A stretch of 41,706 nt of DNA from Hysterium pulicare CBS 123377 (taxonomy: Eukaryota; Ascomycota; Dothideomycetes; Hysteriales; Hysteriaceae), in assembly GCA_000467715.1 (NCBI GenBank), contig AJFK01000251.1, positions 1-41,706 of the forward strand, written 5' to 3'. Positions within the stretch are counted from its first letter, which is position 1. Each line of letters starts with the position of its first letter. The notes beneath the pieces are model-generated. The model was not told the origin of the DNA. It was given only the letters and a program-made list of their open reading frames with translations, and did no database searches. Shown here piece by piece: positions 5,940 through 35,733 of this stretch. A program made the translations under genes and the position numbers.

Positions 5940-6909
5940 CTACGAGTCAAAAACCATCTTGTTCATGACCTTTCCCACATCCACAAGCTCCACCTCAACA
6001 ATGTCACCGTCTTTGAGGAACTTCTTCTGGAAGAAACCGACCCCGGATGGCGTCCCCGTCATGATCACAGTCCCCTTCCTCAGCGTCGTCCCACGAGATA
6101 AATGGGCAATTATCTGTCTCACGGACCAAATCATGTCACTCGTCCCCGTTTCCTGCCTGACTTCTCCGTTCACCCTTGTGACGAAATGGAGTTTCTGCGG
6201 GTCGGGTATGAGTTTTGGGGACCAGATCGCTGGCCCTATAGGAGCGAAGCCATCAAAGGACTTTGCATACCCAAATTGACCTCCGGACACATCTTTGAGC
6301 TGGTAATTCCGTGCCGACACATCATTCCCTGCGGTATATCCCAGTACGTAGTCTAAAGCTTCCGATTCAGTGACGTTCTTCGCGTCACGACCGATGACCA
6401 CGGTCAGTTCGCCTTCGAAATCTAGCATTGATTGAGCATCCGGATGAATGTGTATGTCGTCCGTAGGACCAGATAGCGCGTCGGCAGGTTTGGTAAAGAC
6501 TACTGGGTATTTCGGGACGGTAATCTGTAAAGAGGAATATTGTCAGAGCAGGTTGGGGAGAAAAACATCCAGCTCCTTCATCTAGGAGGAGAAATTCACC
6601 TTCGCTTCCGCGGCATGATGACCGTAATTCACACCAATACACTGGATGATACTTGTGCGCTCGATTGGACAGAGGAGCTGGTCAGCTATCAGTAGGGCCA
6701 TCCATAATCGGGAAAAAATGATCTCGCAAGTGTACCTTCTTGACAATGACCTCCTTCGATGACGCCCCATCTGCAGTCGCAAACCCTTCAGTAAGGTTCC
6801 CATCAAGCTTGGTGACTCGATATTGACCATCGCCGGCATCTTCTAAGAGGTTGCCGTAAGACGCGTGGCCTTGGGCGTCTTCATATCGTACAAGTCTGTC
6901 AAATGCCAT
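5940..6909 (-). CDS. FAH-family hydrolase/isomerase (acylpyruvase-like), 3 exons
   Basis: Exons on the minus strand: 6736-6909, 6600-6677, 5940-6524, giving 278 aa. The GT..AG introns are 58 and 75 nt. The C-terminal FAH domain begins around CIGVNYGHHAAEA (residues about 72-84). It has the metal ligands in DFEGELTVVIG (two Glu, about residue 120) and the Asp in YTAGNDVSARN (about 150), and ends with the typical IMTGTPSGVG segment. Relatives include acylpyruvase/oxaloacetate decarboxylase (FAHD1-type), fumarylpyruvate hydrolase and 2-hydroxyhepta-2,4-diene-1,7-dioate isomerase. All act on 2-oxo or enol acids formed after aromatic ring opening, using Mg2+ or Mn2+. With the phenol hydroxylase and VOC protein nearby, cleavage or tautomerisation of a ring-fission product is the likely job. 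Length and residues look intact. Confidence 0.88.
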
Positions 6910-7356
6910 ATTGCGGTAATTCTGTTCCAGCTAGTATAGCTTTTGGTATAGCAATGCCAAACTGTGAGCTGTGAGCGAAAAGTTTTGCTATGAATTAAGG
7001 TATCGGGACTCAAGTGAGCTAGACGCATAAACGGGGGGAATGACGACGCCGGTCTATTACCCGCCTACATCGCATTAGCTTACATCGGATCTCCCCCACA
7101 TTTCAGCCCTGGTGTGAATACTCCGATGGTGGGATAGCCGAGGGACCGAGCTGTGGCGTGCACTAGTGTTAGCCGCAGGGCAACAAGTGAAGAGACGTTC
7201 GCGGCTTAGTGTGCGACTGTTCGCTCGAGGCCGCCTCTTCTCAGCTCATCGGTAGATGTGTAGGAGGACTACACTTGCGTTCGACTGGTTAGGGTTTCAC
7301 TTCTGTACAGTTGTACAATATATTCTTTACATTCACTCTCTAAGGTATTAAACATG
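6910..7356. other. Intergenic: promoter of the small FAH gene, 3' end of the MHR regulator
   Basis: 447 bases between two minus-strand genes. It contains a CGG-N14-CCG arrangement at 7032-7051 about 120 bp upstream of the FAH-family start. No coding signal recognised. Confidence 0.4.
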
Positions 7357-9730
7357 TTAAAACGCAGCAAGGTTACCATATGCGACCCAACTATCAAGAA
7401 ATCGCATGGTTCGGTTCAGAAGACGCAAGTCCATCGCTTGCATGCCCCCACTGCCTGCCAGTCGAATCATACCTTGGTTACCGTGCGTATCAGTGTCGGG
7501 TCCTGAAGGACTGGAATTACTCTCGGTATTGGTTACCGTGGCGGCGTCATAACCAAGAATCTGCTGCACGTCACGAGCTAGAATACAGACGTCGCGTGCG
7601 CTCTGAAATCTTGGGGCAAGCCGCTTTGCAAACTCCAGGAGCTTTTCGACCTCTGGTGACCAATATGAGTTACTGGGTGTTTCTCCATTGGCCTCCTGAG
7701 CCAGCTCGGCTCGCTTTGGAAGGACAAGCTTATCGCAAGTGTCCCCGACTAGGCATGCAGTCATCGGTAAGATAGTCCAGGCAAGGCTGTTCGTGCCCTG
7801 TTAGCGTGCTATCTCATAGTAGTGCCGAAGTTGCAATGCCTTACATGGTCCCTGGGATAGCCTCCACCACTATGTCGGCCAACAGCCGCTCAACCACCCA
7901 AGCGACTTTCGCAGATGCATCTCGGAGTTTGGTTAGAGCGGCGCGCTGACACCGAGCCCATGGCTCCGGAGAAGTGGACAGGATCAGCTGATATAATGCT
8001 GCAATGCTTGAACTTACATGGCAACCAATTAGCGGGCGATGTCCAAATGTTGGTGGTACAAGCACTAGGAAGAACTCACTGGGTAATTATATATATGTGA
8101 TATGAGCGCATTCTGGCCATCATTTCCTCAGCCGCGGTTTTGTTCCGAATATTCCGTGCGCTCGTGCGCCTCCTGTTTTCATCATAATCCTTCAAGATTT
8201 CCAAGAGCTCCGACTCATGCTGCGCGGCTTGCATATATGTACGAAGGCACTCACGCAATTCTCTCCCTGTATCGGCACCTTCCTCGTTGAGTTCTTCTAC
8301 ACTCCCCATCTCCAAATCGGTGCCTTTCCATTGCCACTGGAAGAGCAGTGACCTCTGAGATCTCAAAATCGAATTCAAACGCTTACTCAACTTGCACAGA
8401 GTGACGAAATCGTCAATCATTATCGACTTTGCTTCCGGGCTTGCGAAATCATGAAAGAATAGTTCCGTCTGAAACTCGGCACGAAGATCCTCGGGGTCAC
8501 AGAGAGGGACTTCCTCGGTATGTAAGCGATACGGTCGCCTCATACAGTACGATATCAGAGTATTTCTGATGATGCAGCACCAAAAAAGGATTTCGTTGCG
8601 TCTGGTGGCCAAAGGCGTAGTCTGGGAGGATGATTTACGCATGAACTGCTTAGTGTGATAAGTGGCCCTATCAGACCAAACACTATTTATCGCAATATCC
8701 AGTTTTGGGCCACACCAAAGAGTTAAGAGAAGAGCAGTTTTAGCCAGAACAATTTCTCCTACTTCGGTTAAAGCTTGAAAGCGGGCGTGTTGATACATGG
8801 TCTGCGCGAATCGTCAGCGTCGAGACATTTGCCAAAGGAAAAGCTGAATTAACTGGGTTCTTACATCAAGCGATTGGTAATAATTCGATTGTGCTTCGTA
8901 TACGGTTTGAAAACCAGCGCGTTGGAGCTGCTCTTCATTGGCGTGCTAGTATAAGTTATTTTAGTGACGCAAGAGGCGTGGCATGGAATCTCGCAACGCG
9001 TATATAGACTTACAGCGAAAGCAACAAATATCATGGCATTGAACATAATCAGGGGAAACATCTGAAAGAAGTTCACGCCAAACTCCGAATACCACTCCCA
9101 GAATAGGTGTTCGTCAATGATGGGACAGAATGGGTGTACATGTTTGAAGTAAAGCGCAATCAGTTCGTCGCGCAGGGGGGCCGGGGGCGGGCGGTATAGA
9201 TCCTTTCCCACGCTGCAGAGAGGAAAGTCGTCGTCGGATTCGGCACAGGTTGAAGGGAAAAGGGCTGGAAGTGGGCCAAAATCGACACATTCTTGCATAG
9301 CGTGCATGGAATGTGATTGGACCGAGTTTGCCCAAAGAGATGCGTCGCCGTCGACGAAGATTTGATCCGGACTCAGAGCGGCTGGATCAATGACTACATA
9401 TCGACATATGTTAGGCTGGACCTCGAAGAAAAGCTTGGGGTATGGGCGGGATTTCCATCTTACTATCAGCTGACGATGAAGATGAGTTCAGCAGGGTGGC
9501 CCATGGCTCTTCGTTAGTCCACATAAATGGACCTGAAATCTCCTGATGCGCCTCCTGCTCTTGTCGTTAACGGACTGGAGAGGCGAGAGGGTTAGAAACA
9601 TTACCTGAGGGGGATGCTCGCCAGGCCAGTCGCGGAGTGGATCCTCGATACCACTTGAAGCCAGCTGGAGGATTTCTTCCATGTCCGTCTCCCCTACATA
9701 GCAGACATCAGGAGAGGCGGAAGTCGCCAT
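7357..9730 (-). CDS. Fungal MHR transcription-factor-like protein without a visible DNA-binding domain, 7 exons
   Basis: Exons: 9605-9730, 9464-9542, 9014-9393, 8865-8945, 8080-8801, about 7845-8012, 7357-7786, giving about 661 aa. The central part has the fungal_trans (MHR) signature: ALYFKHVHPFCPIIDEHLFW (about residues 132-151), then the helical core through TALLLTLWCG and a CQRAALTKL segment, as in cutinase-transcription-factor-like proteins. No Zn2Cys6 cluster is seen in the first 130 residues, and none in any frame upstream to 10200. The exon 5/6 junction is the weakest: a GTGAGT donor at 8079 pairs with an acceptor before 8012 or 8006. It could act as a partner or modulator of another regulator, or a DNA-binding exon may have been lost. 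It is divergent to the D-lactate dehydrogenase gene. Confidence 0.82.
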
Positions 9731-10320
9731 GGTTGCGGGCGGGGGATAAATACAATCTCCGCAGCAGATGTGTGGAGAGAATGATCATGAATGGTGTTTT
9801 GGGAGAGGATCGAATGAGAAGAAGGTGGTAAGGCAGACGATGATGGACAGACGGTGATGATGGAGATGGAGATGGAGATGGGAGAGGACGGTGACGATGG
9901 AGATGGAGATGGAGATGGAGATGGAGATGGAGTTGGGGTTGAGATGCGCCGGGGGTCTTGGGGGGCAAACGCGGGGTGAGTCTAGTCTGTTGTCTGGCCC
10001 GCTACCAGGGGTCACGCGGGGTTCATAGCGAACGCGGAAGCTAGCCGCGAAGAGCAAGGTCCGACTGGTAAGCTGCGGAAAACCCCCACACGCCGTAATG
10101 TTTTTCCGCCCGGGCTTGTCCTTTATCATGTATCTACGCCAGCCCGCTCTACTATTAGAATCATTTACTTTGCTGCGAGCATCCCCCATCTCCATCTGCT
10201 AAGGTTACTTTCCCGAAAGCCCTAATCTCGCCAGGCTTGGGTGGCCGCCGGGACTGCGGCGTGCGGCATCGCTGCCCCTTGCTCCCTTGAAATTGCCATT
10301 TCCCTCTTCATCGGAAAAAA
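9731..10320. promoter_or_regulatory. Divergent promoter region, MHR regulator / D-lactate dehydrogenase
   Basis: 590 bp between divergent starts. It holds the GGAGAT microsatellite (9856-9933) on the regulator side and a CGG-rich stretch (about 10239-10270) near the flavoprotein start, including CGGCGTG, the same 7-mer that forms the palindrome arm at 17282. Regulatory use is inferred from position only. Confidence 0.4.
9856..9933. repeat. GGAGAT hexanucleotide microsatellite (two runs)
   Basis: Two runs of the hexamer GGAGAT in different phases (about 9856-9881 and 9896-9932) are separated by a short imperfect stretch. The second run has about six perfect units. It lies 125-200 bp upstream of the MHR regulator start, probably in its promoter or 5' UTR. 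On the minus strand it reads as ATCTCC repeats. Confidence 0.9.
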
Positions 10321-12314
10321 ATGAAGGTCCTTCGCCGATCCTTGATGTCAATTAGCACCGTCTCCAGTCTGCCCTACTGTCGAGTGTGTTTTAGTAGAAG
10401 ATACGTATCTTTTGCCGGCAACAGTACTACCAATAGTGCACTACGGCGGCCTTGGTTTGTCCCAATAGCAGCTGCTGTCCTTGGCGGCACTACCACTGCC
10501 GCAGCTTTTATGTTCTTTTCGCCCCCTGCACGTGAATCTGCCACTGGATCTTCTGGGCTCCGCGTGCCTAGACGATACGCAGATGCACCGACAATGTTGG
10601 AGGTATGGCCCTGTGAATTGCAAACCGTATCAATACTCACGGTGAATAGGCTGTGAGGCGTATTGCAGAGGTGCTAGGCGAAGGCCGAGTTAGTATGGAC
10701 GAAGACGACATCGAAGAGCACGGTTACTCGGAGTGGTCAACGTCAAACACCAATGCAAGACCCGTTGCCATCGTCTGCCCGAAAAGCACTGAAGACGTCT
10801 CCCTGATCGCGAGGATATGCACGGAATACAGGGTTCCAATGGTGCCGTTCGGGGCTGGCTCAAGCGTCGAGGGCAATTTCAGTTCTCCGTTTTCGGGAAT
10901 TTGTATCGATTTATCTCAGATGAACCAGATCGTGGCGCTCCGTGAGGAGGATATGGACGTGACCGTTCAGCCGGGTGTCAATTGGATGGATCTGAACGCC
11001 TACCTCAAGCGCACTAATCTTTTCCTTCCTCTAGATCCCGGTCCAACCGCTCAAATTGGAGGCATGATTGCCACTAATTGCAGCGGTACCAATGCCATGA
11101 GGTACGGAACTATGAAAGACTGGGTCATCAATTTAACAGTCGTTCTAGCGGATGGTACAATCATAAAAACGCGGCGAAGGCCACGAAAGACCTCAGCAGG
11201 TTATAATCTGAATTCTCTCTTCACTGGCTCTGAAGGTACACTTGGAATAATTACTGAAGCTACTTTGAAACTTGCCATTGTACCAACAAACCGCTGTGTC
11301 ACCATTGCCAACTTCCCAACACTTAGAGACTCGGCGAGGGCGGCATCTAGAATGATGCGTGATGGTGTCCCACTGGACGCTTTGGAGTTGATGGACGAGG
11401 CTCAAATGAAGATCATAAATCAGAATGGCGGAGCCGGAGGAAGGCTATGGGCTGAGAAGCCGACTCTATTCTTGAAGTAATTTTCACACCACCTCTTCTC
11501 GAATAGTCTATAGCTAACCAATTGGTGCAGACTTTCGGGCACTCAACGCGCCATAGATGATTGCCTTACTCGCATTAGATATATCTCTATTACGAACAAT
11601 GGGGGAGGCTTTCACTTTGCTAATACAGAAGAGGAGATGGCCAACTTGTGGGCCGCAAGAAAAGATGCTCTGTGGAGTATGCTTGCAGTCCGACCTGATG
11701 GTACCGAAATTTGGTCGACAGATGTGGCAGTTCCACTATCTCGACTGGCTGACATGATAGGTGAGAAGTCCAAAAATAGAAATATTAGAATGTGTTACAT
11801 ACTAACAAAGGTTGTAGAGCTATCTAAAGAAGAATCAGGCAAGCTCGGACTGTTCTCGAGTGTATTAGGCCATGTAGGAGACGGAAACTTTCATCAAGCC
11901 GTAATGTACAACCCAGGAGAACCCGAACAGCAGAAAGCGGTTGAAAGGTTTGTTCACGACATGATGACGATGGCGCTTGGAATGGAAGGAACCGTTTCGG
12001 TAAGTCCTTGCGTATGTTCCGTCTGATCATGTCCATCTTGCTAACCCATAACGAAGGGGGAACATGGAATTGGTTTGGGAAAAAAGGTCGGTGGTTTCTC
12101 TCGTGATAGCCATGTAGGATGTGCTAACAGAGCGCAGAGTAGTTTAGTGGAAGAGCTTGGTCCAGTCACAATTGGGGTCATGAAGACGCTCAAGCGAAGC
12201 CTCGATCCACAGTAAGTTGATCTCTATTTTTTCGGACTGCCCGTGGTGAAGCTTACTGATGCATTCTCCTGTAGCTGGCTTATGAATCCTGGCAAGGTCT
12301 TCGACGAAACATAA
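10321..12314 (+). CDS. Mitochondrial D-lactate dehydrogenase (cytochrome)-type flavoprotein, 7 exons
   Basis: Exons: 10321-10602, 10650-11476, 11531-11760, 11818-11999, 12057-12086, 12138-12211, 12275-12314, giving 554 aa; exon 5 is only 30 nt. The N-terminus is rich in Arg/Ser (MKVLRRSLMSIS...) and followed by a hydrophobic segment near residues 42-65, as in Dld1-type proteins anchored in the inner mitochondrial membrane. The PCMH-type FAD domain has PFGAGSSVEGN and GGMIATNCSGTNAMRYG. The FAD-oxidase C domain has GHVGDGNFH (metal/substrate histidines) and GEHGIGLGKK. The expected reaction is D-lactate, or another D-2-hydroxy acid, to the 2-oxo acid with electrons to cytochrome c. Beside a pyruvate/phenylpyruvate-type decarboxylase it could feed 2-oxo acid to that enzyme. 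It is divergent from the MHR regulator. Confidence 0.92.
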
Positions 12315-13234
12315 ACAAACTAAGAGTGTCTCTGTTTGGTGGCTGTTCCCAAAGGATGTTTCCTGTCTCAGCCTTCATCGATTTTGTTCGGTGTTCTTGT
12401 TCAAAGGGTTTGTACAAGTTCAAAGACGTGTACTTATCAATCCAGTATGAAAAAAACATCCACGTTCTAAAAGTCAATTAATCTATCCGAAGTCTCAAGC
12501 TTGACTTAAGTTCTTAACGGGGTGTTTTCGCCCTTACTTCTTGATCGCTTGATTGTTAGCCAGAGGCGGTCGTTTGATTGAAAATTGGTTGATAATTGCA
12601 TTAAAAGTCACTCATTGAATCTTTGTAGTCACGTGAAGACGGTAAATCGCTTGTAGGCTTCAGTGTTACAGAAAGATGATTTCAGATTCTTAGCATAGCA
12701 ATATTTTCTAATACTTGAGTTATCTAAATTTCGCTAACTGGTATAACCAATCTGTAACGAAACAGAGAGTAAAGAGTGAGCAGTCTATTCCGACTTTTCT
12801 TTCTTCAGAATCATCCTGGGGTGACAATATTCGTACTCAGATATTCGCTTGAGGTCGATACTTGTTGCCCTCGCAGAAACCCCACATCTCTAGCCGACCC
12901 ACATGTGCGATGATCACATCCCAGATATCCATTCCGGCCGCCTATACGCCGAGATCAGATCCACATAGCGGAAATGGTTCCAGGTGGCCGCATGAAGGTT
13001 CTCAGGTGTCGCGTAGGTCCGCATGTTCCAGCCGTTAACTCCGATGGGGGCCCCAGATTTGAGCTAGCGCTTCGTAAAATAAACTTATATCTCGGATCGG
13101 AGTGCTGCGGTAAGTCTGTCTCCAAACTGGATCAAACAACGAACATTGGCTTCGTGTTCGCTCTTAAATAATTCTTTCCCTACGCTTCTCGCTTCCTGCC
13201 TACACATATAGAGTGTATTCAAGTCAATACGATC
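12315..13234. promoter_or_regulatory. Intergenic: 3' of D-LDH and promoter of fumarylacetoacetase
   Basis: 920 bases without a supported gene. The last part, upstream of 13235, is pyrimidine-rich, as in many fungal promoters and 5' UTRs, and holds a CGG-N11-CCG site at 12935-12951. No RNA gene or repeat recognised. Confidence 0.5.
12935..12951. promoter_or_regulatory. CGG-N11-CCG, candidate Zn2Cys6 site
   Basis: CGG and CCG half-sites are separated by exactly 11 bases, 284 bp upstream of the fumarylacetoacetase start. This is the spacing used by Gal4-type proteins. The spacer is not palindromic. By chance about ten such spacings are expected in a window of this size, so this is only a candidate. 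Confidence 0.3.
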
Positions 13235-14440
13235 ATGTTCGCAGATCACTTTTCTCTCTCCAATTTGCCATATGGAATTGCGAGCTCAGAGACGCACCCC
13301 AATCGCTCTATCGTCACGCGATTGAGAGATGATGTGATTTTCCTAGCTGATTTCATTAAAGAGGCCGGCTTTCTGAAGGATCTTTCGCCATCAACAGCGC
13401 AAGCAATTCGTCAGCCAACGCTGAATGATTTCGCCGCTCTGCCAAGTGCCGAGAGACAAGTATTCCGCTCGCTCTTGCAACGAATCTTGAATGAGCGAAA
13501 CGTGGAGACAGTGTCGAACTTGATTCAACCAATAGCCAATGTTAAGATGCACCTGCCGGTCAAGATCGGCGAATTCAGCGACTTCTCATGTTCCAAAGAG
13601 CATCAATACAACGCTAGCGAGGCAGGCTTAGGAACTCGGCGCCTTCCTCCGAGCTTCCTCAACTTTCCAACCGCGTACGCTGGAAGAGCGTCCTCGATCG
13701 TGGTCTCGGGTACACCAATCCGAAGACCGAAGGGACAGTATCGCAATAAGAATGGAGATGTAGTCTACGCGCCGACTCAAGCTCTTGACTACGAACTGGA
13801 ACTAGCCTGTGTGGTCGGCCTAGGTTCACAGAGAGGGGAGACTATACCAGCATCCCGGGCCAAGGATCACATCTTTGGCGTGGTGCTTTTGAATGACTGG
13901 AGTGCCCGTGATGTTCAGGGTTTTGAGATGATGCCGCTCGGCCCTTTCAGCAGCAAGAACTTTGGGACTTCTATATCGCCGTGGATTGTGACGGTTGAAG
14001 CCTTGGAGCCGTTTCGAGTTCCACTCGTCCCAAGAGATGTCCCAGTGGCGGAGTATCTGGCGGATGAAGAATCAAAGGCGTCGTACAATATCAGCCTCAG
14101 GGCGGAATTGGCAGTCGGTGGATCGACCACCACAATTTGTAAATCTACATTCCAATCCGTATACTGGAACTTCCAACATCTTGTGGCACATCAAACAGCC
14201 ACCGGTTGCGCGCTAAACAATGGAGACATCTTGGGTAGCGGAACGATTTCAGGATCCGACAGGGACTCTCTTGGGTGTTTGTTTGAACTTAGCAAGAATG
14301 GCAAAGAAACCTTCAGTCTACAAGGAGGAGGAATCCGAACATTTTTACAGGACGGTGATACAATACGGCTTACCGGGTATGCGGGAACAGAAAGTGACGG
14401 TGTTGGTTTTGGAGAATGTATTGGAATGGTTGTCTCGTGA
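13235..14440 (+). CDS. Fumarylacetoacetase (FAH), single exon
   Basis: 401 aa, unspliced. It has both parts of true fumarylacetoacetases: the N-terminal SH3-like domain (MFADHFSLSNLPYG) and the C-terminal FAH fold. The active-site region reads EFSDFSCSKEH, with the metal-binding Asp and the catalytic-base His. DYELELACVVG supplies two Glu ligands, NDWSARDVQ supplies an Asp, and the GSGTISG loop is kept. The family hydrolyses fumarylacetoacetate to fumarate and acetoacetate in tyrosine/phenylacetate/homogentisate breakdown, and some members take other 2,4-dioxo acids. It is slightly shorter than typical (about 420-430 aa). No homogentisate dioxygenase or maleylacetoacetate isomerase is visible in this window, so it may be a cluster paralogue with another acylpyruvate-like substrate. 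A CGG-N11-CCG site lies upstream. Confidence 0.92.
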   Translation: MFADHFSLSNLPYGIASSETHPNRSIVTRLRDDVIFLADFIKEAGFLKDLSPSTAQAIRQPTLNDFAALPSAERQVFRSLLQRILNERNVETVSNLIQPIANVKMHLPVKIGEFSDFSCSKEHQYNASEAGLGTRRLPPSFLNFPTAYAGRASSIVVSGTPIRRPKGQYRNKNGDVVYAPTQALDYELELACVVGLGSQRGETIPASRAKDHIFGVVLLNDWSARDVQGFEMMPLGPFSSKNFGTSISPWIVTVEALEPFRVPLVPRDVPVAEYLADEESKASYNISLRAELAVGGSTTTICKSTFQSVYWNFQHLVAHQTATGCALNNGDILGSGTISGSDRDSLGCLFELSKNGKETFSLQGGGIRTFLQDGDTIRLTGYAGTESDGVGFGECIGMVVS

Positions 14441-14902
14441 GTTAGAGGCTAAAATCGATGAGATGATTACTTTCGTCGATGTAGATATACCATATCCAAG
14501 TTGTTATTTTTGGTTGTTGTTTCCTTCAATGATGAATACTCAGCATGTGCATATATTGTCACATGTTGCAGAAATGGAGCGAGTGGGCCATGAAGACAGG
14601 CGATGTCAAGACCATTAAAGGAGAGCACAACTCGTTTTGGTAAACACACAAGAAGTCCTATAGAAGGAACAGTGGCTGAGGTCACGATTGAACTCTCGGC
14701 AAATCAAATTGGCCATCAACGGGATCGCGGTTTGCTCGGAAGCTTACACTGTTTGAGGCAATCCTAGTACAGTGAGAAGTTGTGCTCAAATGCCACTCAG
14801 ATATTCCAGACTCGATGTGCAACCGAAGTAATATCGTAGTATCTAATACCATAGCACCAATAGCGACCTTGGTATGCTCCATGTGCCAATGCTTTTTTTT
14901 CA
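14441..14902. other. Convergent intergenic region, fumarylacetoacetase / TPP decarboxylase
   Basis: 462 bases between convergent stops. Nothing recognised beyond the 3' ends. Confidence 0.5.
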
Positions 14903-17183
14903 TTAAGAATGCCCATTGAAAGTATCTCTATCCCTCGCACTGCTCTTCGAAGGTTGATTCTTTCCGGCGTTGATAATGTCAATCTGTGCTGCGAGTCTCC
15001 AAGGAACGTCCATCACGTCCATACATATTTCAAGAACCTAGAGGGCCCAATGAGTTGATAGTTCCTATTAATGGTTCCAGTGAATGGGGAGCCTAACCTG
15101 AATGGATTGAGGATGAGTAAATTCAGGCAGTCGAACGACATCCTCAAATTCTCTCTTAGTTTTAACAACTCGACTGCAGGCCTCTCCGTCTTTAGCCCCA
15201 AAAAAGTCGAGCATTTTCAGATGATTCCATGTAGCAATGTCATTGTAGGCTTTCCTAAGAGGTCAGCCGCTGCTTTCTTTATTCATGCTGGGTTCCGCGT
15301 CTTTTAGGACGAATTTGCAGGACTTTCGTGTATGAAAAGCAGAAAGGATATCTTACCTTCTTCCGGTCCATGGATGGCTCTCTCGATGGTGTAACCTTTA
15401 TTGTTGATTACCAGTCTGTCGTGGAGGTTAGAAGTCAGTCTCAAATCTCATCTGTAGTAAGACTGACATGATTATATTCTGTAGACGTTGTTTGATCATT
15501 GTGCCGATTTCCTGTACAGTCAACTGTAAGCTGCCGTCACCAACGGCGAGTACAATCCTGCCTTGTCGACCTTGCTCTCGCTGTGCAATAGCTGCTCCTA
15601 GACACGCAGGAACAGTATAGCCAATGCTGCCATAGTAAACTTGCGTCATATAAGTAATGCTCTCCGGTAGTTGAGCGTCGGGAAGGCCGAATTGAGCGGT
15701 GCCAGACTCGGCTATTAGGATGTCACCGGGGCGGAGAAATCGTCCGAGTCGTTTCCAAATCCAAGATTGGGTTATCTTGTCTGAGTTCAAGTCTCTAGGA
15801 GGCAGTGGTGAAGGAATAATGGGTGCGGAAGGACTTGGGAGTCTTGACTTATCGATCGCCTGAAGAAAAGCCGACAGAACTGTAAGGTTAGCCACTTATC
15901 TTTCGGCAATCATCAAGCATGCTCACATGATAAGAGTCTAGTATGTCGATAGACTGTGCCTGCGATTACGACATGGTGGGGATGAACCATTATCAGTTTT
16001 TCTTCTGAAATGTGCCGTGTAAAACCTCCAGTGTTAGAATCGGAGAGAAGGGGTCCAAGATTCATAACAACATCGCTGTCTCGCTCAACCGCTTCCCTTA
16101 CACCTACAGGAGAAACTTTTCCGTTATAAATTCCATGAAAGTAGGAATGTGTCTCATTAATGATTGATTTGCCCATTGAAGTTGCGAATGTTGGAAACTG
16201 TAGCACGTCGATGACCTGACGAGCAACATCAAGTGCAAGATGGCGTGCCACTAGAGCATCAATTAGAACCACGGGAGATTTGGCCGCATAAATCATGGAT
16301 AGAGCGGCAGAGACCGCAGCTGCTTCAACATCGCGATTTGATAAATATGTCAAGTCGATAGGAGTTGGCGGACTAGCGGGGACGGGTTGATGGACCATGT
16401 CCATAGGAACGAAGATGTATACAGGTAATGACTGTGCGTAACACTCCTGAATGACTCTCTAATCAACGAATCAGCGGGAAGCAAGATATTGTCGGTTCAG
16501 TTGAGAAGACAAACATCGATTTCGGAAGCTGCTGTCTTAACGTTGTCCAACCAGCAATGAGTTGTTCGAACGTGGCGCGAAATTTTCTCATAGACCTGTC
16601 CCAAATTAGCTTTATCGAGCTGAGATGTTCAGGACCCTGATTGACCTTATGATCTGGAGATGGTCCCAGGCAGTGATGTATCATAAGGTTATTTTCTTGT
16701 GCTGCCTTCGAAGTAGTACCGACGACATGTATGACTTTGACCTGCTCGGTATAGGCGCCCGCGATACCGTTGATGGCACTCAACTCGCCCACGCCCATTG
16801 TGGTAATAACTCGTACAGTAAGTCTTCATCTCCACTTTTGCACCACCGATATGACTTACGAACGCCGGGACAGCCTTTGATCCTGCAGTAGCCATCTGCG
16901 GCATAAGCAGCATTGAGCTCATTTGCATTTCCAACTTGGGTGCAACGTCAGTGTTGCCCTTGTATACAGCCCGACGATTGGGAACCATTACTCCATTCTA
17001 AACCATCGACGTTTTCAATGTAATCGAGAAGCTCTAGATTCATGTCGCCTGGAACGCCCATGATACTTCCTACGCCGACGTCGCGTATTCTGAGTGATAG
17101 AATTAGCTACACAGGCCGTCATTTTAGAAGTAGCCTTACTTCTGCCATAGTAATTGGCCGAGTGGAACTTCATTCTTGGACAT
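14903..17183 (-). CDS. Thiamine-diphosphate 2-oxoacid decarboxylase (pyruvate/phenylpyruvate decarboxylase family), 10 exons
   Basis: Exons: 17140-17183, 16992-17089, 16860-16934, 16646-16809, 16515-16595, 15927-16458, 15468-15879, 15357-15415, 15098-15249, 14903-15037, giving 583 aa. The protein matches the PDC family end to end: VPGDMNLELLDYIENVDG (Asp30), ANELNAAYAADGY (TPP Glu53), MGVGELSAINGIAG, the HH pair in MIHHCLG (residues 117-118), the ThDP motif GDGSLQLTVQEIG to INN, and YTIERAIHGPE with the catalytic Glu. Expected: non-oxidative decarboxylation of a 2-oxo acid (pyruvate, phenylpyruvate or indolepyruvate) to an aldehyde in the cytosol with Mg2+ and ThDP. Nine introns is many for this family. 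Two donors are weak (GTTTGT, GTCAAT) but give family-consistent junctions. It is divergent to the beta-lactamase-fold gene across a region with a perfect palindrome. Confidence 0.9.
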
Positions 17184-17708
17184 GTTCGCTAGATAAGTCG
17201 CTACCGTATCGTTCTCTTGCTATACAGACCTCTACGGAAGTCTGGCGTATAGTGGCTATTGAAGTACGGACATTAGATGGACGGCGTGGCACACGCCGAA
17301 CGAGATTCGGAATGATCCGTGGCACTCCAGCTCATGGCTATTCATGGCTTACAACATACGCACGGCGATGACGAGCCAAATGTGGGTGATGAATAACGCG
17401 AATGCGACGAACGTGTGGGGGAATTGCGGGTGGGGGACGAGTGGTCTCTAGGGAGTATCATTCCGCCCCGAGGGTAACCCCTCGATTGCACGTCGCCCTG
17501 ATCGCCAGGGAACTAGGTAGGATTCACCGTAATCAACCAGCGCTACGAGTACAACGCTCTCTACACTCCATTTCGTGGTTAATAGTACATTGAACGACCG
17601 AGTTTAACCAGAACTCTTCACCGCAGGAGAAGTCGTTGGCCTTCAGTATATTCGCAGTCCTAGTGTCTCCAAAGCAAACCCCAAGAAACCAAGGAAACCC
17701 ATTTCAAG
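17184..17708. promoter_or_regulatory. Divergent promoter region, TPP decarboxylase / esterase
   Basis: 525 bp between divergent starts, with the CGGCGTG-GCA-CACGCCG palindrome near its middle-left part. No convincing gene in it. Confidence 0.5.
17282..17298. promoter_or_regulatory. Perfect palindrome CGGCGTGGCACACGCCG, candidate Zn2Cys6 operator
   Basis: Two 7-bp arms (CGGCGTG and CACGCCG) are exact reverse complements around a 3-base spacer. Read as half-sites this is CGG-N11-CCG, the Gal4-type spacing. It lies about 100 bp upstream of the TPP decarboxylase start and about 410 bp upstream of the esterase start. The seven-base perfect arms make it stronger than the other site with the same spacing. 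The nearby regulator at 24-27 kb has a Zn2Cys6 cluster, a plausible binder (inference). Confidence 0.5.
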
Positions 17709-19046
17709 ATGCAGTCTCTACAAGAGTCGTTCGAAGCAGCCTGCTCCAAGGGGCAGATCCCAGGTGCTGTCCTCGCTGCAGCTGACAAGTCTGGAAAGTT
17801 GAATTATGCGAAGGCATTCGGCTTTAGCTCGCTGAAAGGGGAGAAGACTCCCCTCGAGACAGATGCACTCATGACGCTCGCGAGCTGCACAAAGCTTATC
17901 ACGGCGATTGCTGTGTTGCAGCTTGTGGAAAGTGGCCAGGTTTCACTTAACGACGACGTGGCGGACATTCTTCCGGAGCTTGCGAAACAAGAGATCTTGA
18001 CTGGTATGAAGGACGGAAAAGGCGTTTTGAAGAAGAGACAAAATCCAATCACTCTGCGGTATATCATCTTTTTCTTCCCCCTCAAAGCGATGCGCACATG
18101 AGTTCTAATTAGTGCATAGTCACCTTCTTACCCACTCGTCTGGCGTAGCCTATCCTTTCATGTCACCACTCTTGCAAGAATACAACGTCTCTCTCGGTAA
18201 ACCCGCCGTCTCCCACGCTCAAACCGTTTTACAAGGCTTTAGCGCACCTCTCGTGTTCGAGCCAGGCACATCCTGGACCTACAGTGCCGGTCTTGACTGG
18301 GTTGGTCTTCTTGTCTCTCGTGTGTCCGGAAAAGATCTAGAGACGTACTATCAAGAACATATTTTCGCTCCACTCGGTATCAAAGACATAACGTTCTGGC
18401 CAGAGAAGCAGCCGGACCTCGCGGCCCGGAGAGCTGACATATCATCTCGGGACCCGTCCGGCAAGGTCAGCGCATTCGATGGACCAAACATTGTCAGTGG
18501 AGCTACGGAGGAACTAGGCGGTCAAGGCCTCCACGCTTCTATGCCATCCTACCTCAAAGTACTTCGTAGCCTACTTGTCGATGATGAAAAGCTACTCAAA
18601 AAGGCGACGGTTGCTCAAATGTTCAAACCGCATCTCACAGAAGATAGTCGCAAGGTGCTTCAGGCAGAGTATGAAAAGCAGCCGAAGAGAGGTCCATGTA
18701 GCATTGGCCTGTTTCCGCCAGATGTAAGGTATGATTGGGGACTGAGCGGCTTGCTGACCACGCAGAATGTGGATAGAGACGGCCTACAGTGGAGAAGAGA
18801 GGGTTGTTTGAACTGGGGTGGGGTACTCAACTGCTTCTGGGTAAGTTTATCCACTCGATAATATAGGTTGAAGGGATTTAGCTCACCATCGCGATCGTGT
18901 CTATGTAGTTCCTTGATAGATCGGCGGGAGTGTGCGGCATCTATGGCACACAAATACTACCACCTGGCGACGAACCGACCAAGGAGATGACGGCTTTGTT
19001 CGAGAAAGCAATGTATAAAGAAGTTGCAAGCCAGGGCAGTTTGTGA
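17709..19046 (+). CDS. Beta-lactamase-fold serine esterase/transacylase (LovD/EstB type), 3 exons
   Basis: Exons: 17709-18058, 18120-18840, 18909-19046, giving 402 aa. The SxxK nucleophile motif is Ser59-Cys-Thr-Lys62 (LASCTKLITA), followed by the class-C-like HLLTHSSG segment and a Tyr in SWTYSAGLDWVG (about residue 180) that would complete the catalytic triad. Near the C-terminus the LNWGGVLNCFW stretch stands where LovD-like proteins have their third motif. No signal peptide, so probably cytosolic. Family members hydrolyse or transfer short acyl esters and occur in both secondary-metabolite and degradation clusters. Here it might release a phenol from an ester, or open a lactone, before ring hydroxylation; that is inference. 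It is divergent from the TPP decarboxylase. Confidence 0.88.
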
Positions 19047-19830
19047 ATCGTTCGAAGTGACGACCATATTGGTAGTGCAGGAAGTTAGTAGGGCAGGAAA
19101 ACGAAGAAAATAGACACGTATGATGAACTCTGGCAACGAGACGAGGGAACATGTCCAATCGAAAGCTGTCTGCCATGGGGCATATCTTTGTTGTAGTGAC
19201 CTAGGTTGGCGCCACGAATATAGCCTCTTTCAACCTTTCATTGCCGACTTTCTTGAGTCTCTGTGCTTTGGCATGCTCGTAAAGTGGATATTGATTTGTC
19301 TTGACTCGGTATTCCAAGCCCTTCTCTTGCATATGAAGGAAGCGTCAGAGTGCAAGACGCATGTCGTTGCCAGAGGCTTTCCACCTGCCAGCCTGGGCGC
19401 TCTGCAAGACGCTAGAGCTCGACGAAGACATACCTAGGCCCCTCTAGCTGGTGACAAGATGACTGCGGCGGCTTACAACATGAACTCTTGGGTAGGTGAG
19501 GGGGATAGGGAGATGGATAGGGAGATGGGTAGGGAGATGGGTAGGGAGATTCGGTCTCGGTCGCGGCAGTTTAGGTGGCATGGGCGAAACCCCACTTCCC
19601 CCTCGCGCCCCTCCATCCATCCTCGACGGCCCAGTTCCGTCACAAACGTCCGCTGCTTAATAACACATGCAACGTACCTAGGTAGCCGCGGTGCCTCCAG
19701 CATATTAATCGATTTCGAAGAGCGCCTTCATTCTTCTCAACCCCAGCATTAACATCACCCGTGCTACTTCTTCCTACCGATTCGATCAGATCATCTAGAC
19801 TTGCACAGAGTTCCCGAGACTGCCATCGCC
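19047..19830. other. Intergenic: promoter region of the VOC gene
   Basis: 784 bases without a supported gene. It contains the 12-bp minisatellite at 19504-19550 and a pyrimidine-rich run towards 19830. Frames crossing it show no domain. Confidence 0.5.
19504..19550. repeat. 12-bp minisatellite GATAGGGAGATG, about 4 copies
   Basis: Four head-to-tail units: two GATAGGGAGATG, one GGTAGGGAGATG, and a last GGTAGGGAGAT. It lies about 280 bp upstream of the VOC-protein start. The unit contains GGAGAT, the same hexamer as the microsatellite at 9856-9933. Confidence 0.9.
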
Positions 19831-20379
19831 ATGGCCGTTGACTTTGATTCACCGGGCGATACCGTCCTCAAGCCCGTCTCTCTCGCCCACATCTTTCTCC
19901 GGACGAACAAGTTCCAGGCCATGGTGGACTGGTACAAGAAGTTTCTCAATGCCGATGCACGCTACGAAACCAGCCGCATTGCCTTCCTTAGTTTTGACGA
20001 AGAACACCACCGGATCGCCATCTGCGCCGTACCAGGCACGGGCGAAAAGGTGAAGACGAGTGCCGGGCTTGAGCACATAGCCTTTGGATTCAAGACCCTG
20101 GATGACCTCGCCCTAGCATACCGTCAAAGGAAGAAGTTGGGAATGAATCCGTCATGGTGTGTCAACCACGGCATGACCATCTCGATATACTACGAGGATC
20201 CAGACGGCAATCAGCTCGAGACTCAGGTTGATACTTTTGACGATAACGATCAAGCGACAGCTTATATGGAGACGGAGGAGTTTAAAAAAAATCCAGTTGG
20301 CGTGGAATTTGATCCGGAGGAGCTGGTTCGTCGCCTGCAAGCTGGAGAGAGTCGAGATTCTATTAGGAAGCGCGGTTAG
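19831..20379 (+). CDS. VOC-superfamily protein, extradiol-dioxygenase/glyoxalase-like
   Basis: 182 aa, unspliced. The ATG at 19831 (GCCATGG context) is chosen; the frame is open upstream without a better Met. One vicinal-oxygen-chelate module pair spans residues about 14-135. Candidate metal ligands are His20 (SLAHIFL), His82 (LEHIAFGF) and Glu130 (DGNQLETQVD), the 2-His-1-carboxylate set of type I extradiol dioxygenases; His113 and Tyr residues before EDPDGN resemble the active-site side. Fungal homologues are often labelled biphenyl-2,3-diol 1,2-dioxygenase, but activity is rarely shown. It could cleave a catechol made by the nearby phenol hydroxylase, or isomerise a ring-opened product. 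At half the size of BphC it is comparable to single-module extradiol enzymes. Confidence 0.85.
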   Translation: MAVDFDSPGDTVLKPVSLAHIFLRTNKFQAMVDWYKKFLNADARYETSRIAFLSFDEEHHRIAICAVPGTGEKVKTSAGLEHIAFGFKTLDDLALAYRQRKKLGMNPSWCVNHGMTISIYYEDPDGNQLETQVDTFDDNDQATAYMETEEFKKNPVGVEFDPEELVRRLQAGESRDSIRKRG

Positions 20380-20763
20380 GATGGATCTTTTCAAAATTCT
20401 ATGATCAAAGATTTGGAGGTGGGAATGAAGCTTTTCGCTCTAGTGTACTTGGTTGCCATGTCATAAACGTCAAATTCAACAACAACTTGAGTTCATCGTT
20501 GAGTCTTTATTGCGTGTGTCAAAAGAAATAGTTCTTGCATTCGTCGTTGCTGACCTTACGATCTCATTAGACATCCTGCTACCACTTTCTCTTTGCGGTG
20601 TTCTAACATCCCGAAGCATTGAGAGATTCTCTTTCCCTTCTCGAGAGCCGTTTGTCCGAAAGCTTCTAATCATATCATCAACGACAAACTTTCCAAATCG
20701 CCCGTACATCTCCCATTGAGTGGCCGACTCCAGGGCACTCAAATATTTACTATAGGCTTTGAT
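20380..20763. other. Convergent intergenic region, VOC / CMD-like
   Basis: 384 bases between convergent genes. No gene, repeat or RNA recognised. Confidence 0.5.
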
Positions 20764-21682
20764 CTAAAACTCAATATCGTCCACTTTTGTAATCTCCCCA
20801 GTCTTGCAGTTAAACTGGCGAGCGATAGCTAATCCCAAGTCCTGAGCAAAGCGCGCGTCATCCAAGGTTCCTCCATGCCGGACAATACCTTTGGTGTGCC
20901 AGAGTGCTTGAGCGGGAGAGTTGTAGCAGGTCAGAAGAACGGTGTAGCAAATCTGCGTCTCGAGGGGAGATAGGATGGCATCCTCGCTCACATAGTGCTC
21001 GTATATAAGGGCAAGGCAGAACTCTAGCCGAAAAGATTGAGTTAGGAAGAGAGGGGCAAATGATGAGCGACAGGAATTTCGAGAAAGGCGGCTTACGGTT
21101 GTCCGTATGATACTTCAGGACCCTAGCCCGCATTTCCTCTGCCCCCGCTGGTGTCCAAAGGGTATCGAAATATTTCCGACCTCGTTCAACCCGTTTCTCG
21201 GTCTCTTCTTTCGAGCCCGCCTTTTCTGTCCTATGGTGTTTGACCTGGTCAGTCTTGCCTGCGCAACACATCCCCCTTCGCAGAATCTGATTGAGATGGG
21301 TGGGTGGTGGATTACCTAGGTCCATAAGTATCAATCTCTTCGTCCGGTAAGGTCTGATACAAAGGCCCCAATGCCTGCGCCGATCGAGGCACACCATAAA
21401 GGATAATGCCTTTTAGCACCGCTTCTTTGATCCTTCGCTGTACGAGTTTACGTTCTTCCATCGCAAGTCCTTCGGTGGCAAGGCGGTACAGCTCGGGCAT
21501 ATGTTGGCCTGCTTGAGCTGCCGCAAGGCCAACAGCCTTTGTACATCAGCAGCGACTCATTCAATTCGTATGTCTTGCTGAGAAGAAACCTCACAGACCG
21601 TGGCAATGTACCATCGAGCCGTCAAAAAATTGTCTTCTTCTTGGCGCCGGCGGAACGGGGTTAAAAAATCGAATGTCCCCAT
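20764..21682 (-). CDS. Carboxymuconolactone-decarboxylase/AhpD-like protein, 4 exons
   Basis: Exons: 21590-21682, 21316-21536, 21097-21230, 20764-21023, giving 235 aa. The start MGTFDFLTPFRRRQ is the only in-frame Met leading into exon 1. The exon 2/3 join uses an acceptor at 21231 that keeps the helical pattern DTYGPR-TEKAGSKEET. The all-helical body, with RRIKEAVLKGIILYGVPRSA in the first half and ETQICYTVLL to ALWHTKGIVRHGG in the second, is typical of fungal CMD-domain proteins. No CxxC redox pair of AhpD is present, so a decarboxylase/lactonase-like or unknown role is more likely than peroxidase reduction. CMD proteins act after ring cleavage in the 3-oxoadipate pathway. It is divergent from the phenol hydroxylase, which suggests co-expression. 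Confidence 0.78.
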
Positions 21683-22148
21683 GTTGGCAATTGTCGGAAG
21701 CTACATAGGTAGCTAGGCGGAGCAGAGGGCGTATTTGCTAGCCATATACCATGCATGTGAGCTTGAGCTATCCATAGATAGTCATGTGGGGGAAGGGCCA
21801 GGAACGAAGAGGCTCGGCAAAATAAACGGCAAAATAAACGAGTGCTATCGAGATATCGACATCGGGAAAACCCCACGAGACTTTCACTCAACCCTTGCGC
21901 TTCGGCTCGGCGGGGTATCTTCGAACCTAGGCCTTCTATGAGATGGAACCACCTGCACCTGATCAGTGCTCACAAGAGTGGATCCTGTATGCTCTGTCTT
22001 CTCCAGAGGCTCTCAAAGGCGATATCACATTCACTTTAGTCTTGAGCCTGGCAGCATTTATATTCTCGGCCCAGCTTCCATGAAATCGCGCGGCAGATTA
22101 GATTAGGAGACAATTACAGGACAATTTTGTTGATCGGGATCGAACATC
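21683..22148. promoter_or_regulatory. Divergent promoter region, CMD-like / phenol hydroxylase
   Basis: 466 bp between divergent starts. The notable element is the tandem CGGCAAAATAAA pair (21815-21838). Nothing coding is supported. Confidence 0.45.
21815..21838. repeat. Tandem 12-bp repeat CGGCAAAATAAA x2 in a divergent promoter
   Basis: Two perfect head-to-tail 12-mers, each starting with CGG, are followed by another CG. They lie about 130 bp from the CMD-like start and 310 bp from the hydroxylase start. Direct CGG repeats are a binding layout used by some Zn2Cys6 proteins; binding here is a guess. Confidence 0.6.
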
Positions 22149-24076
22149 ATGGCAGATGTAATCAGTGTTCCTGTGGTAATAGTGGGAGGAGGGTGTGAGT
22201 AGCCCCTACCGTGCCATACCAAAATTACTTTCTAACGTACCTGCCCATGGTCAAAAGCCTGTGGCCTCAACCTCTCATCATTTTTATCCAATCTCGGTGT
22301 CAAACATGTCCTCTTTGAGCGTCATCCAGGGACGTCGATTCTACCAAAGGCACACGTGATCAATCAACGGACAATGGAGATATTCCGTCAACATGGCATT
22401 GCGGAGGCTATCATAAAGGAGGGCACACCACCTAGGCAGATGAGCCAAATCGTCTGGCAGACCTCGTTGGGCGGAGATGGTCCTTTAGACCGAAAGGTCT
22501 ATGGAACTCACGACACATGGGGATGCAAGTTCGGTACCGAGAGATACACAATATACCAGTAGGTTCACTCCTGTACATCGAAATGACGGCGGCTGAGCAG
22601 CTATATTTTACTAGACGTGACGCTCCTCATATGCCATCCAACCTGCCGTTACTTCGTTCAGAGCCCATATTCCGTGCTATTGCGGAAGAGAGAAATCCGG
22701 GCAAGATACTATTTGGGCATACCGTAACCGATTTCAAAGATGAAGGGGATCATGTAATCGTTCACGTGGAAACCAGAGACGGAAAGAAGAGCACCTATCG
22801 TGCGGAATACGTTGTTGGGGCTGATGGCGGGAAGACGATTGGTCCTAAAATTGGGGTCGAAATGGAAGGCCCCAAGCAGCTTAGGAATGTTATATCGACT
22901 CATTTCAAGGCAGACCTGTCGCGATACTGGGATGACCGCACTTGTATTGCACACTTTGCCAATGCCGAAGGTGGTGCGCTTTTCCGCAGCGGTTCGATGC
23001 TTCCATTAGGACCGACGTGGGGACGGCATTCAGAGGAGTGGCAGATGCATTTCAGCACCAGAGTCGGTGACGCTCCGCTGTCCGAGAAAGACGCCTTGCC
23101 GCGGATTCGCCAACTCCTAAAGCTACCAGACCTCGACCTAGAGCTAATCAGCATTACCAACTGGGTCCAAGAGAGAGTTCTAGCAACGCACTACCAGAAG
23201 GGCCGCGTTTTCATCGGCGGAGATGCCGCTCATCGTCACCCACCTACTACGGGACTCGGGTTGAACACTGCAGTACAAGATGCACATAATCTAGCCTGGA
23301 AGTTGGCTTACGTGTTGAAGGGAAAAGCCTCCCCTAGCCTCCTTGATACATATGAGCCGGAGCGGCGCCCTATTGGGAGGCGAAACTGTGACTGGGCTTT
23401 CTTCACTTGGAAGAACCACGCCGTTATAAATGCTGCTGTTGGCCTCCAAGAAGGGCAGGTAGAATCTAACAGGCTACATTTGACCAGATTGTTTGACGAA
23501 GAATCCGAGATCGGGCAAGCAACGCGCGCAACCCTCCAGCATACCATCAACGGCCAGGTAATTGAGTTTGGTTCCCATGACATGGATCTGGGCTTTTTCT
23601 ATCCCAAAGGCTCTTTCGTCCCAGATGCCACCGAACCCCCTCTCTCGGATCCAACCCGTCAAAAGTATACGCCCACAACTAGACCCGGTCATCGTTTGCC
23701 ACACGCCTGGCTTGAACGTGAGGGGAATGTCTACTCTACCCACGACCTCGTAGGCCCAGAAGGCGACTTTCTTCTCATCACAGACCGACATGGCACCGCG
23801 TGGATTGACATCGCGAAAAAGGCATCCAAAGCACGGGGCGTTTGCCTCCGAGTGGCACAGATAACAGAGCCCTACAAAGGCGTGGAACCAGGTGAGTACC
23901 TCGACCCTGATGCGCACTGGTCACAGGTGAAAGGGATTGGGAAAGGTGGTGCTATTCTTGTTCGGCCGGACAACATTGTCGGGTGGCGCTCCGCTGGACC
24001 TGGAGAGTCCGATGGGCCTTTCAATGCATTCGACGAAATTTTCGATTCTCATGCCACTCTCAATGGAGATATATGA
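22149..24076 (+). CDS. FAD-dependent aromatic hydroxylase (TfdB / phenol 2-monooxygenase type), 3 exons
   Basis: Exons: 22149-22194, 22258-22558, 22615-24076, giving 602 aa. Group A flavoprotein hydroxylase: the FAD-binding GGGSCG motif is created across intron 1. It is followed by FERHPGTSILPKAHVINQRT and the GGDGPLDRK stretch very like bacterial 2,4-dichlorophenol 6-monooxygenase. The DG motif region is VVGADGGKTIGP and the second FAD motif is FIGGDAAHRHPPTTGLGLN. A thioredoxin-like C-terminal domain follows (about residues 430-602). Expected: NADPH- and O2-dependent ortho-hydroxylation of a substituted phenol, cytosolic. A product with vicinal hydroxyls would suit the VOC protein 1.8 kb away. 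It is divergent from the CMD-like gene. Intron 2 ends at ACTAG just before RDAPHMPSNLP, the family-consistent junction. Confidence 0.92.
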
Positions 24077-34660: not shown

Positions 34661-34667
34661 GCAATTT

Positions 34668-35400: not shown

Positions 35401-35733
35401 GCTGGTCTGACTTATAGGTTGGTGATGATTATCATAACCAGGCATCACTTTGTGAGGGGCTAGAAAGGTTTTACGTGAGACTGCTGCGTACAGTACGTCA
35501 AAAAGGGACATTAAGTACAGCGGCGAGGTGGCTGTGAGACATATGCAGCTTAATCTCCTTAGTTTCCTTCGCATGGCACGTATTGAAAAGCACATGATAC
35601 CCTGCCCTCGTTGAATTTTTGCAACTACCAATTCCACAACACTTCTAGTTGTTTCTTACATCATATCACCTGCGCATACCCTCGTCTATTCTTCCTGGTA
35701 CGGTCAATATGGATAACTACAAAAATCTCAAAA

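Follow-up and report, generated by a model that had tools for sequence, protein, structure and literature searches.

The window, a stretch of 41,706 nucleotides from the fungus Hysterium pulicare CBS 123377 (contig AJFK01000251.1), contains a TfdB-type phenol hydroxylase gene (22149-24076), a gene for a VOC-fold protein with the active-site residues of a type I extradiol dioxygenase (19831-20379), and genes for two different FAH-fold hydrolases (5940-6909 and 13235-14440). On balance, we favour the interpretation that the hydroxylase, the dioxygenase and one or both hydrolases form the core of a gene cluster, as a fungal version of a three-enzyme module that opens aromatic rings in bacteria. 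The module is likely right; as a pathway it is unproven. In an assembly of 596 contigs and 37.2 Mb, the window corresponds to contig C196, and its gene build is fungal. Genes were modelled ab initio with a small gene finder and a home-made splice scorer trained on the window, and were then refined by hand. The gene models were assigned to families by sequence searches against Pfam, NCBIfam and PDB. These models and searches recovered the core enzymes listed in an initial annotation of this DNA, as well as its SxxK esterase, D-2-hydroxyacid dehydrogenase and 2-oxoacid decarboxylase.

Active site of the VOC protein and its candidate partner enzymes

The VOC protein has 182 amino acids and is encoded by a single exon on the forward strand. 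It scores 46 bits against PF00903 (cut-off 20.6 bits), and Foldseek confirmed the VOC fold of its structure model, which has a mean predicted local distance difference test score (pLDDT) of 82.9. The metal triad proposed in the initial annotation (His20, His82 and Glu130) is located where it was claimed to be, and pairs with H153, H214 and E265 of XylE, the catechol 2,3-dioxygenase of plasmid pWW0. This metal triad is common to glyoxalases and fosfomycin enzymes, and hence the triad alone proves little. Three further residues of the VOC protein, H60, H113 and Y120, pair with H199, H246 and Y255 of XylE, and the six residues occur in the same order in both proteins. We take the six XylE residues to be metal ligands and catalytic residues. 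The pairing was read in a MAFFT alignment of 31 VOC relatives to which the catalytic half of XylE was added, and the XylE positions 153, 199, 214, 246, 255 and 265 were confirmed in the pWW0 sequence as four histidines, a tyrosine and a glutamate, in this order. An hhalign comparison of the VOC profile with XylE (28% identity over 107 aligned columns) printed a pairing that we read as the same six residues. XylE differs from the fungal protein in its size (307 amino acids) and in consisting of two halves.

All six residues were kept in 28 of the 31 aligned rows, with the fungal row counted. The other three rows (L028, L029 and L069) are divergent, and had neither a TfdB-type nor a FAH-fold match in the stretch of DNA fetched around them. 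The alignment excludes a fragment (L019), two entries (L055 and L070) that duplicate the loci L012 and L015 of a separate 11-row alignment, and the loci L078 and L079. In the 11-row alignment all six residues were invariant. Furthermore, the extradiol signature PS00082, in the form of the pattern that we assumed from recall, matches the VOC protein at residues 111-130, and its best dioxygenase matches in NCBIfam, to the models for BphC and for catechol 2,3-dioxygenase, span the catalytic half of each. On the strength of its active site we class the protein as a type I extradiol dioxygenase whose subfamily is neither BphC nor catechol 2,3-dioxygenase, and ring cleavage would be its predicted activity. 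It has no close paralogue in the 37.2 Mb fungal genome, where the nearest other VOC match (contig C74) is 34% identical. Three VOC matches, 28-34% identical to the VOC protein of the window, lie within 2.4 kb on this contig (C74:18685-21094).

The hydroxylase gene is on the forward strand and has two introns (exons 22149-22194, 22258-22558 and 22615-24076). Its product of 602 amino acids carries the FAD_binding_3 domain (PF01494; E 1.2e-87) and a C-terminal PF21274 domain (E 9.8e-14), with the motifs GxGxxG at residue 13, GADG at 184 and GDAAHRHPPTTG at 318. By these domains and by its GxGxxG, DG and GD motifs, it is a group A flavin adenine dinucleotide (FAD) aromatic hydroxylase of the TfdB type. 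The protein is 50% identical to hydroxylases encoded on two Rhodococcus plasmids (R. koreensis and Rhodococcus USK10). These are the top two TfdB rows among 169 plasmid records, and both sit inside VOC-FAH operons. Likewise, when a set of 32 bacterial genomes was searched, three of the top four TfdB matches belonged to VOC-FAH loci.

The FAHD-type hydrolase (5940-6909, reverse strand, three exons, 278 amino acids) carries the FAA_hydrolase domain (PF01557; E 2.4e-67, 227.1 bits) that is expected of an acylpyruvase or diketo-acid hydrolase. Its best curated or solved relatives in NCBIfam and PDB are a 2,4-diketo-sugar-acid hydrolase and isomerase/decarboxylase models of the HpaG/HpcE type. It stays below the cut-off of every NCBIfam equivalog model, with best scores of 175.3 versus 500 and 167.7 versus 276.4. 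Bacterial FAHD counterparts near the VOC relatives are 32-43% identical to it.

The second hydrolase (13235-14440, forward strand, single exon, 401 amino acids) passes the fumarylacetoacetase model TIGR01266 (402.1 bits; cut-off 375.3 bits). Its catalytic core is retained, in that it keeps the residues aligned with D126, H133, E199, E201, D233 and K253 of the fumarylacetoacetase 1qqj, with serine and leucine in place of Y128 and R142. We assume that 1qqj is the mouse enzyme, and that Tyr128 and Arg142 belong to its substrate pocket. Another FAH in the fungal genome, on contig C447 and some 2 kb away from a match to HgmA, retains tyrosine and arginine at these two pocket positions. Because the pocket of the cluster copy differs while that of the C447 copy is retained, the cluster FAH may act on a substrate other than the usual one.

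Recurrence of the gene set in bacteria and in the fungal genome

A scan of bacterial and archaeal genomes with the VOC protein gave 11 relatives, 10 of which shared 38-45% identity with it across most of its length. The VOC protein also matched 40 plasmid records, of which 13 loci were fetched. These were the matches H1, H5-H14, H23 and H30, a sample that is not random and that skips H2-H4 as unannotated. Both a TfdB-type and a FAH-fold gene were found within the fetched stretch in nine of the 13 plasmid loci (L020, L022-L026, L075, L078 and L079). Two loci had a FAH-fold gene only (L021 and L027), and two had neither (L028 and L029). In R. koreensis and Rhodococcus USK10, the VOC, FAH-fold and TfdB-type genes are consecutive.

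Co-location was quantified by using the TfdB and FAHD proteins of the fungus as queries against the 32 bacterial genomes and comparing the coordinates of the matches with those of the 46 VOC loci in these genomes. The loci were pooled from scans with different limits (E 1e-10, 1e-20 and 1e-15), and the genome of L019 was excluded. A FAH-fold gene lay within 5 kb of the VOC gene at no fewer than 24 of the 46 loci, compared with 0.53 expected under uniform placement. For a TfdB-type gene the count was 11, against an expectation of 0.15, and at least 10 loci had both genes within this distance. Recurrence of the three families is far above the uniform expectation and the best other VOC match in the fungal genome is only 34% identical, which implies that the grouping is more than chance. 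The VOC family itself is rare. It was detected in 6 of 399 genomes of one order (E ≤ 1e-20) and in 18 of 387 genomes of another (E ≤ 1e-15), where each count includes a centre genome that was chosen for having a VOC gene.

The same three families are clustered at the VOC-FAH-FAD monooxygenase loci of Rhodococcus koreensis R85, Rhodococcus sp. USK10 and R. rhodochrous (pNit), which are known from gene records. Identities between the Rhodococcus and fungal proteins are 46-50% for TfdB, 40-45% for VOC and 35-38% for FAHD. The loci of R. koreensis and R. rhodochrous add genes annotated as acetoacetate-CoA ligase and malonic semialdehyde reductase. In contrast, the fungal cluster adds a second, full-length FAH, a FAD-linked D-2-hydroxyacid dehydrogenase, a decarboxylase and a LovD-like esterase, as well as introns and fungal regulators. 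The identity of 50% to Rhodococcus hydroxylases is suggestive of horizontal transfer, yet a tree of 17 hydroxylase rows leaves the fungal row without a firm place, and we do not advance transfer as a claim.

A distant VOC gene (25.6% identical at the protein level) on plasmid p53363 of Bradyrhizobium guangxiense, a peanut-root isolate (L078), lies between a gene of the carotenoid-oxygenase family and a FAH gene, with a FAD oxidoreductase gene nearby. This gene content would suit stilbene breakdown, making the locus a candidate for stilbene degradation.

Elsewhere in the fungal genome, TfdB relatives are 36-40% identical to the cluster hydroxylase over long stretches. A second TfdB-FAHD neighbour pair is present on contig C17 (25521-29099; matched parts about 2.1 kb apart), and its FAHD is 72% identical to the cluster FAHD over 199 amino acids. 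The pair possibly marks another catabolic locus of this genome, related to the one in the window.

Other genes of the window

Between the FAHD and VOC genes lie a FAD-linked D-2-hydroxyacid dehydrogenase of the D-lactate type (10321-12314, forward strand, 556 amino acids; PF02913 and PF01565), a pyruvate/2-oxoacid decarboxylase (14903-17183, reverse strand, 583 amino acids, 10 exons in the model; PF02776, PF00205 and PF02775) and a serine esterase/acyltransferase of the class C beta-lactamase fold (17709-19046, forward strand, 402 amino acids; PF00144, E 6.3e-49). The nearest PDB relative of the dehydrogenase is a 'probable D-lactate dehydrogenase' (E 3.9e-107), and the decarboxylase matches the branched-chain-2-oxoacid decarboxylase 9axw (E 1.1e-137) and the pyruvate decarboxylase 1qpb (E 3.6e-137). 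The esterase has its SxxK motif as SCTK at residue 59. Its nearest solved relatives are the 'Transesterase' 4lcm (E 1.3e-84), which we take to be LovD, so that we call the esterase LovD-like, and Pc15g00720 (E 7.1e-78). What ties these three genes to the pathway is their proximity, their role in it is unproven, and the 18 kb may not be one single pathway.

A protein of 232 amino acids (20764-21682, reverse strand) had been labelled CMD-like in the initial annotation, a family assignment that found no support and that we dropped. The protein had no Pfam match at E ≤ 1, so that a CMD domain was not detected, and no NCBIfam match at E ≤ 0.01. Searches of PDB gave only unrelated weak matches, and there was no match at E ≤ 0.01 across 72,556 plasmid records. 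The exon model of this gene is possibly imperfect, which could contribute to these negative results. The suggestion, made in the same annotation, of a bacterial-style route through a hydroxylase, an extradiol dioxygenase and FAH enzymes gained from the six-residue match to XylE and from the recurrence in bacterial loci; its CMD part fell away. Three genes annotated as carboxymuconolactone decarboxylase family occur on plasmid pRvVAR031a of Agrobacterium vitis, which is grapevine-associated, at a locus (L079) with a VOC relative, two FAH-family genes and a FAD hydroxylase.

Two regulator genes have rough models. The one at 7357-9784 (reverse strand) was judged by eye to be a probable fungal regulator; its exon borders are unsure, and Pfam gave no match for the model used. 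The other, at 24292-26851 (reverse strand), is a transcription factor with a Fungal_trans domain (PF04082; E 1.2e-13), and cysteine motifs read by eye in the frames upstream of it include Zn2Cys6-like and C2H2-like stretches. Short repeats rich in TCCATC, seen as low-complexity translations, occur at 9840-9990, upstream of the dehydrogenase gene.

To the left of the FAHD gene lie a cupin-like gene (829-1630, reverse strand) whose AraC_binding and Cupin_2 scores in Pfam are below the cut-offs, a zinc alcohol dehydrogenase (2045-2995, reverse strand, 316 amino acids; PF00107 and PF08240) that may be part of the cluster, and an MFS transporter (3688-5475, forward strand, 540 amino acids; PF07690, E 1.1e-33) that is possibly the transporter of the cluster. 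To the right, at 27293-41394, Pfam detected genes for a P450, a flavin-containing monooxygenase (FMO), a short-chain dehydrogenase/reductase (SDR), a UbiA-type protein, an O-methyltransferase and a multicopper oxidase, which may be a separate secondary-metabolite cluster.

Proposed pathway, alternative explanations and known systems

From the three core families we infer a sequence of three steps, and the chemistry given here is our own derivation from standard chemistry. The TfdB-type FAD monooxygenase would put a hydroxyl group adjacent to an existing phenol hydroxyl. The one-domain VOC type I extradiol dioxygenase would then use O2 and a metal that it binds, probably Fe(II), to open the ring beside the new diol, and one or both FAH-fold enzymes would process the cleavage product, most likely by cutting a C-C bond of a 1,3-diketone. 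Ortho-hydroxylation followed by extradiol cleavage would yield a 2-oxo acid, and where the ring bears another hydroxyl in meta position to the one attacked, it would yield a 2,4-dioxo acid. Since a 2,4-dioxo acid would be a good substrate for a FAH-fold hydrolase, rings of the resorcinol or phloroglucinol type are likely substrates, perhaps as the A-ring of a flavonoid or isoflavone, or as a stilbene-derived or orcinol-type phenol.

If the ring is the A-ring of a flavonoid hydroxylated at C8, opening it at the C8-C8a bond would give a 2,4-dioxo acid joined to an oxo-lactone. A hydrolytic cut would then free oxaloacetate (or pyruvate and CO2), leaving a 5-aryl-3-oxo-delta-lactone. The presence of two FAH-fold enzymes would suit a product that is cut twice in succession. 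Opening of the lactone could fall to the esterase, and conversion of hydroxy and oxo acids to the dehydrogenase and the decarboxylase. In the fde naringenin pathway of Herbaspirillum seropedicae, as described in passages of two papers (PMC10755750, PMC11303751), the FAD monooxygenase FdeE hydroxylates the A-ring, the dioxygenase FdeC is involved in cleavage, and there is a lactone intermediate with putative loss of the ring as oxaloacetate. The same lactone was matched by mass in P. rubens (PMC10755750). The products derived above agree with the H. seropedicae lactone, with the putative loss of oxaloacetate and with the P. rubens masses, as far as the passages of PMC10755750 describe them.

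Several observations weigh against the ring-opening module. The VOC protein is far from reaching the NCBIfam cut-offs for BphC (27.8 versus 366.45 bits) and catechol 2,3-dioxygenase (23.2 versus 320.2 bits), fosfomycin-resistance (Fos) VOC models score it as high as the dioxygenase models do, and FosA is the top Foldseek match of its structure model. The protein might accordingly be a glyoxalase, epimerase or thiol transferase that keeps dioxygenase-like residues and cleaves no ring. We consider this quite improbable, because all six XylE residues are present rather than the triad only, the printed alignments of FosB and glyoxalase I lack histidines at VOC positions 60 and 113, and aromatic hydroxylases often neighbour the bacterial VOC relatives. 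Foldseek was set aside as a test of function, as it detects the VOC fold but puts FosA first. With regard to FAHD, its relatives include HpaG/HpcE-type isomerase/decarboxylases, which serve meta-cleavage pathways for other rings, so that it may catalyse a reaction other than diketone hydrolysis, and a resorcinol-type substrate does not necessarily follow. Its gene is also 13 kb away from the VOC gene, with five other genes between them. Furthermore, among the 27 bacterial rows that keep all six residues, 13 lack both a TfdB-type and a FAH-fold match in the DNA fetched around them, although several of these 13 come from short contigs, and the partner hydroxylases are not one clade, with weak support for the position of the fungal row in the 17-row tree. 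TfdB relatives that are 43-48% identical occur in Streptomyces clusters in which VOC and FAH-fold genes are absent from the fetched stretch; some of these clusters carry a type III polyketide synthase (PKS) and a prenyltransferase, and others also have no VOC gene. Because of these clusters the TfdB gene alone is not diagnostic, and it was set aside as such.

The Streptomyces clusters with a type III PKS and a prenyltransferase also bear on the idea that the gene set serves tailoring or self-detoxification in a secondary-metabolite pathway, acting on a polyketide or meroterpenoid of the fungus itself instead of on plant phenolics. The P450, FMO, UbiA-type, O-methyltransferase and multicopper oxidase genes in the right half of the window and the likeness of the esterase to LovD fit this idea as well. 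However, no PKS, nonribosomal peptide synthetase or terpene synthase was present among the gene models scanned, which do not cover the full window, and several bacterial VOC-FAH-TfdB loci lie among genes for CoA ligases, oxoacid oxidoreductases or transporters, which suits catabolism. We regard a tailoring role as unlikely. About as improbable as a VOC protein that cleaves no ring is that the neighbours are mostly unrelated, the unit comprising only some of the three core genes and the remainder being ordinary metabolism placed next to them by chance. The FAHD, dehydrogenase, FAH, decarboxylase and esterase genes are in mixed orientation with a regulator between them, and D-lactate dehydrogenases and pyruvate decarboxylases are widespread enzymes, of which the PDB searches show close relatives. 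Nevertheless, the same three families recur in bacterial loci, and the fungal genome holds the second TfdB-FAHD pair. A variant of a homogentisate- or gentisate-type pathway, with the FAH in its usual role, would agree with the FAH score above the fumarylacetoacetase cut-off, but is very improbable. The initial annotation saw no intradiol, homogentisate or gentisate dioxygenase in the cluster. In agreement with this, the intradiol (PF00775) and HgmA (PF04209) domains match the fungal genome on other contigs only and not on the window contig, whereas no family search was made for gentisate dioxygenase, and the cupin-like gene reaches only sub-threshold cupin scores. One of the HgmA matches on the other contigs lies beside its own FAH, the C447 copy that retains the pocket residues lost in the cluster FAH, and we rejected the homogentisate route.

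The ring-opening module can be compared with several known systems. Its likeness to fde, which is bacterial, is drawn from descriptions of FdeE and FdeC and not from sequence. The isoflavone cluster ifc of Variovorax V35 is described in passages of PMC11069340 as containing the FAD monooxygenase IfcA, the glyoxalase-family protein IfcB and two cupins; the paper cites GenBank LC777269-LC777272 for ifc. By description, fde, ifc and the window share a FAD monooxygenase and a glyoxalase-family dioxygenase in one cluster. As a difference from the fungal cluster with its FAH-fold genes, the word fumarylacetoacetate is absent from the main text of PMC11069340. The IfcD cupins act on a pyranone (PMC11069340), whereas the cupin-like gene of the window is a weak match. 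Among fungal enzymes, CDO3 is an extradiol dioxygenase too and is said in passages of PMC8896014 to cleave rings in vitro. It is of class III, resembles DOPA-4,5-dioxygenase and belongs to a fold family other than VOC, and its complete pathway is unresolved according to the same passages. RgF8H of Rhodotorula glutinis, also from a fungus, is a flavin monooxygenase with flavonoids as substrates and C8 as the position hydroxylated, and its authors suggest that a similar gene arrangement may exist (PMC9422121). Unlike for the fungal cluster, no ring-cleavage gene or cluster is reported with it in the passages of that paper.

As far as the passages of these papers go, meta-cleavage in fungi is uncharacterised (PMC8896014), extradiol dioxygenases are less common in fungi (PMC12388069), the genes for fungal naringenin breakdown are not known, and complete degradation of the flavonoid scaffold had earlier been reported from bacteria only, with no syntenic cluster in P. 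rubens (PMC10755750). Among the matches listed in the open-licence PMC literature, we found no published fungal cluster of this make-up, and the searchable passages of a naringenin transcriptomics paper (PMC4440368) contain none on fde genes. Each enzyme family is known, and so is this kind of pathway in bacteria (fde and ifc); what would be new is a fungal cluster of this make-up.

A more far-reaching possibility, which we regard as speculative and rather unlikely, is that the cluster carries out the complete breakdown of flavonoid or related polyphenol scaffolds by meta-cleavage, as a fungal counterpart of fde and ifc. Its core would then have passed between actinobacteria and fungi in one direction or the other, and would have been remodelled by the addition of a second FAH-fold hydrolase, a FAD-linked D-2-hydroxyacid dehydrogenase and a LovD-like esterase that opens the lactone. 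With a complete type I extradiol active site and the partner families of bacteria together at one fungal locus, it becomes directly testable which genes are involved, what their substrate is, and whether this carbon route is common to fungi and soil bacteria.

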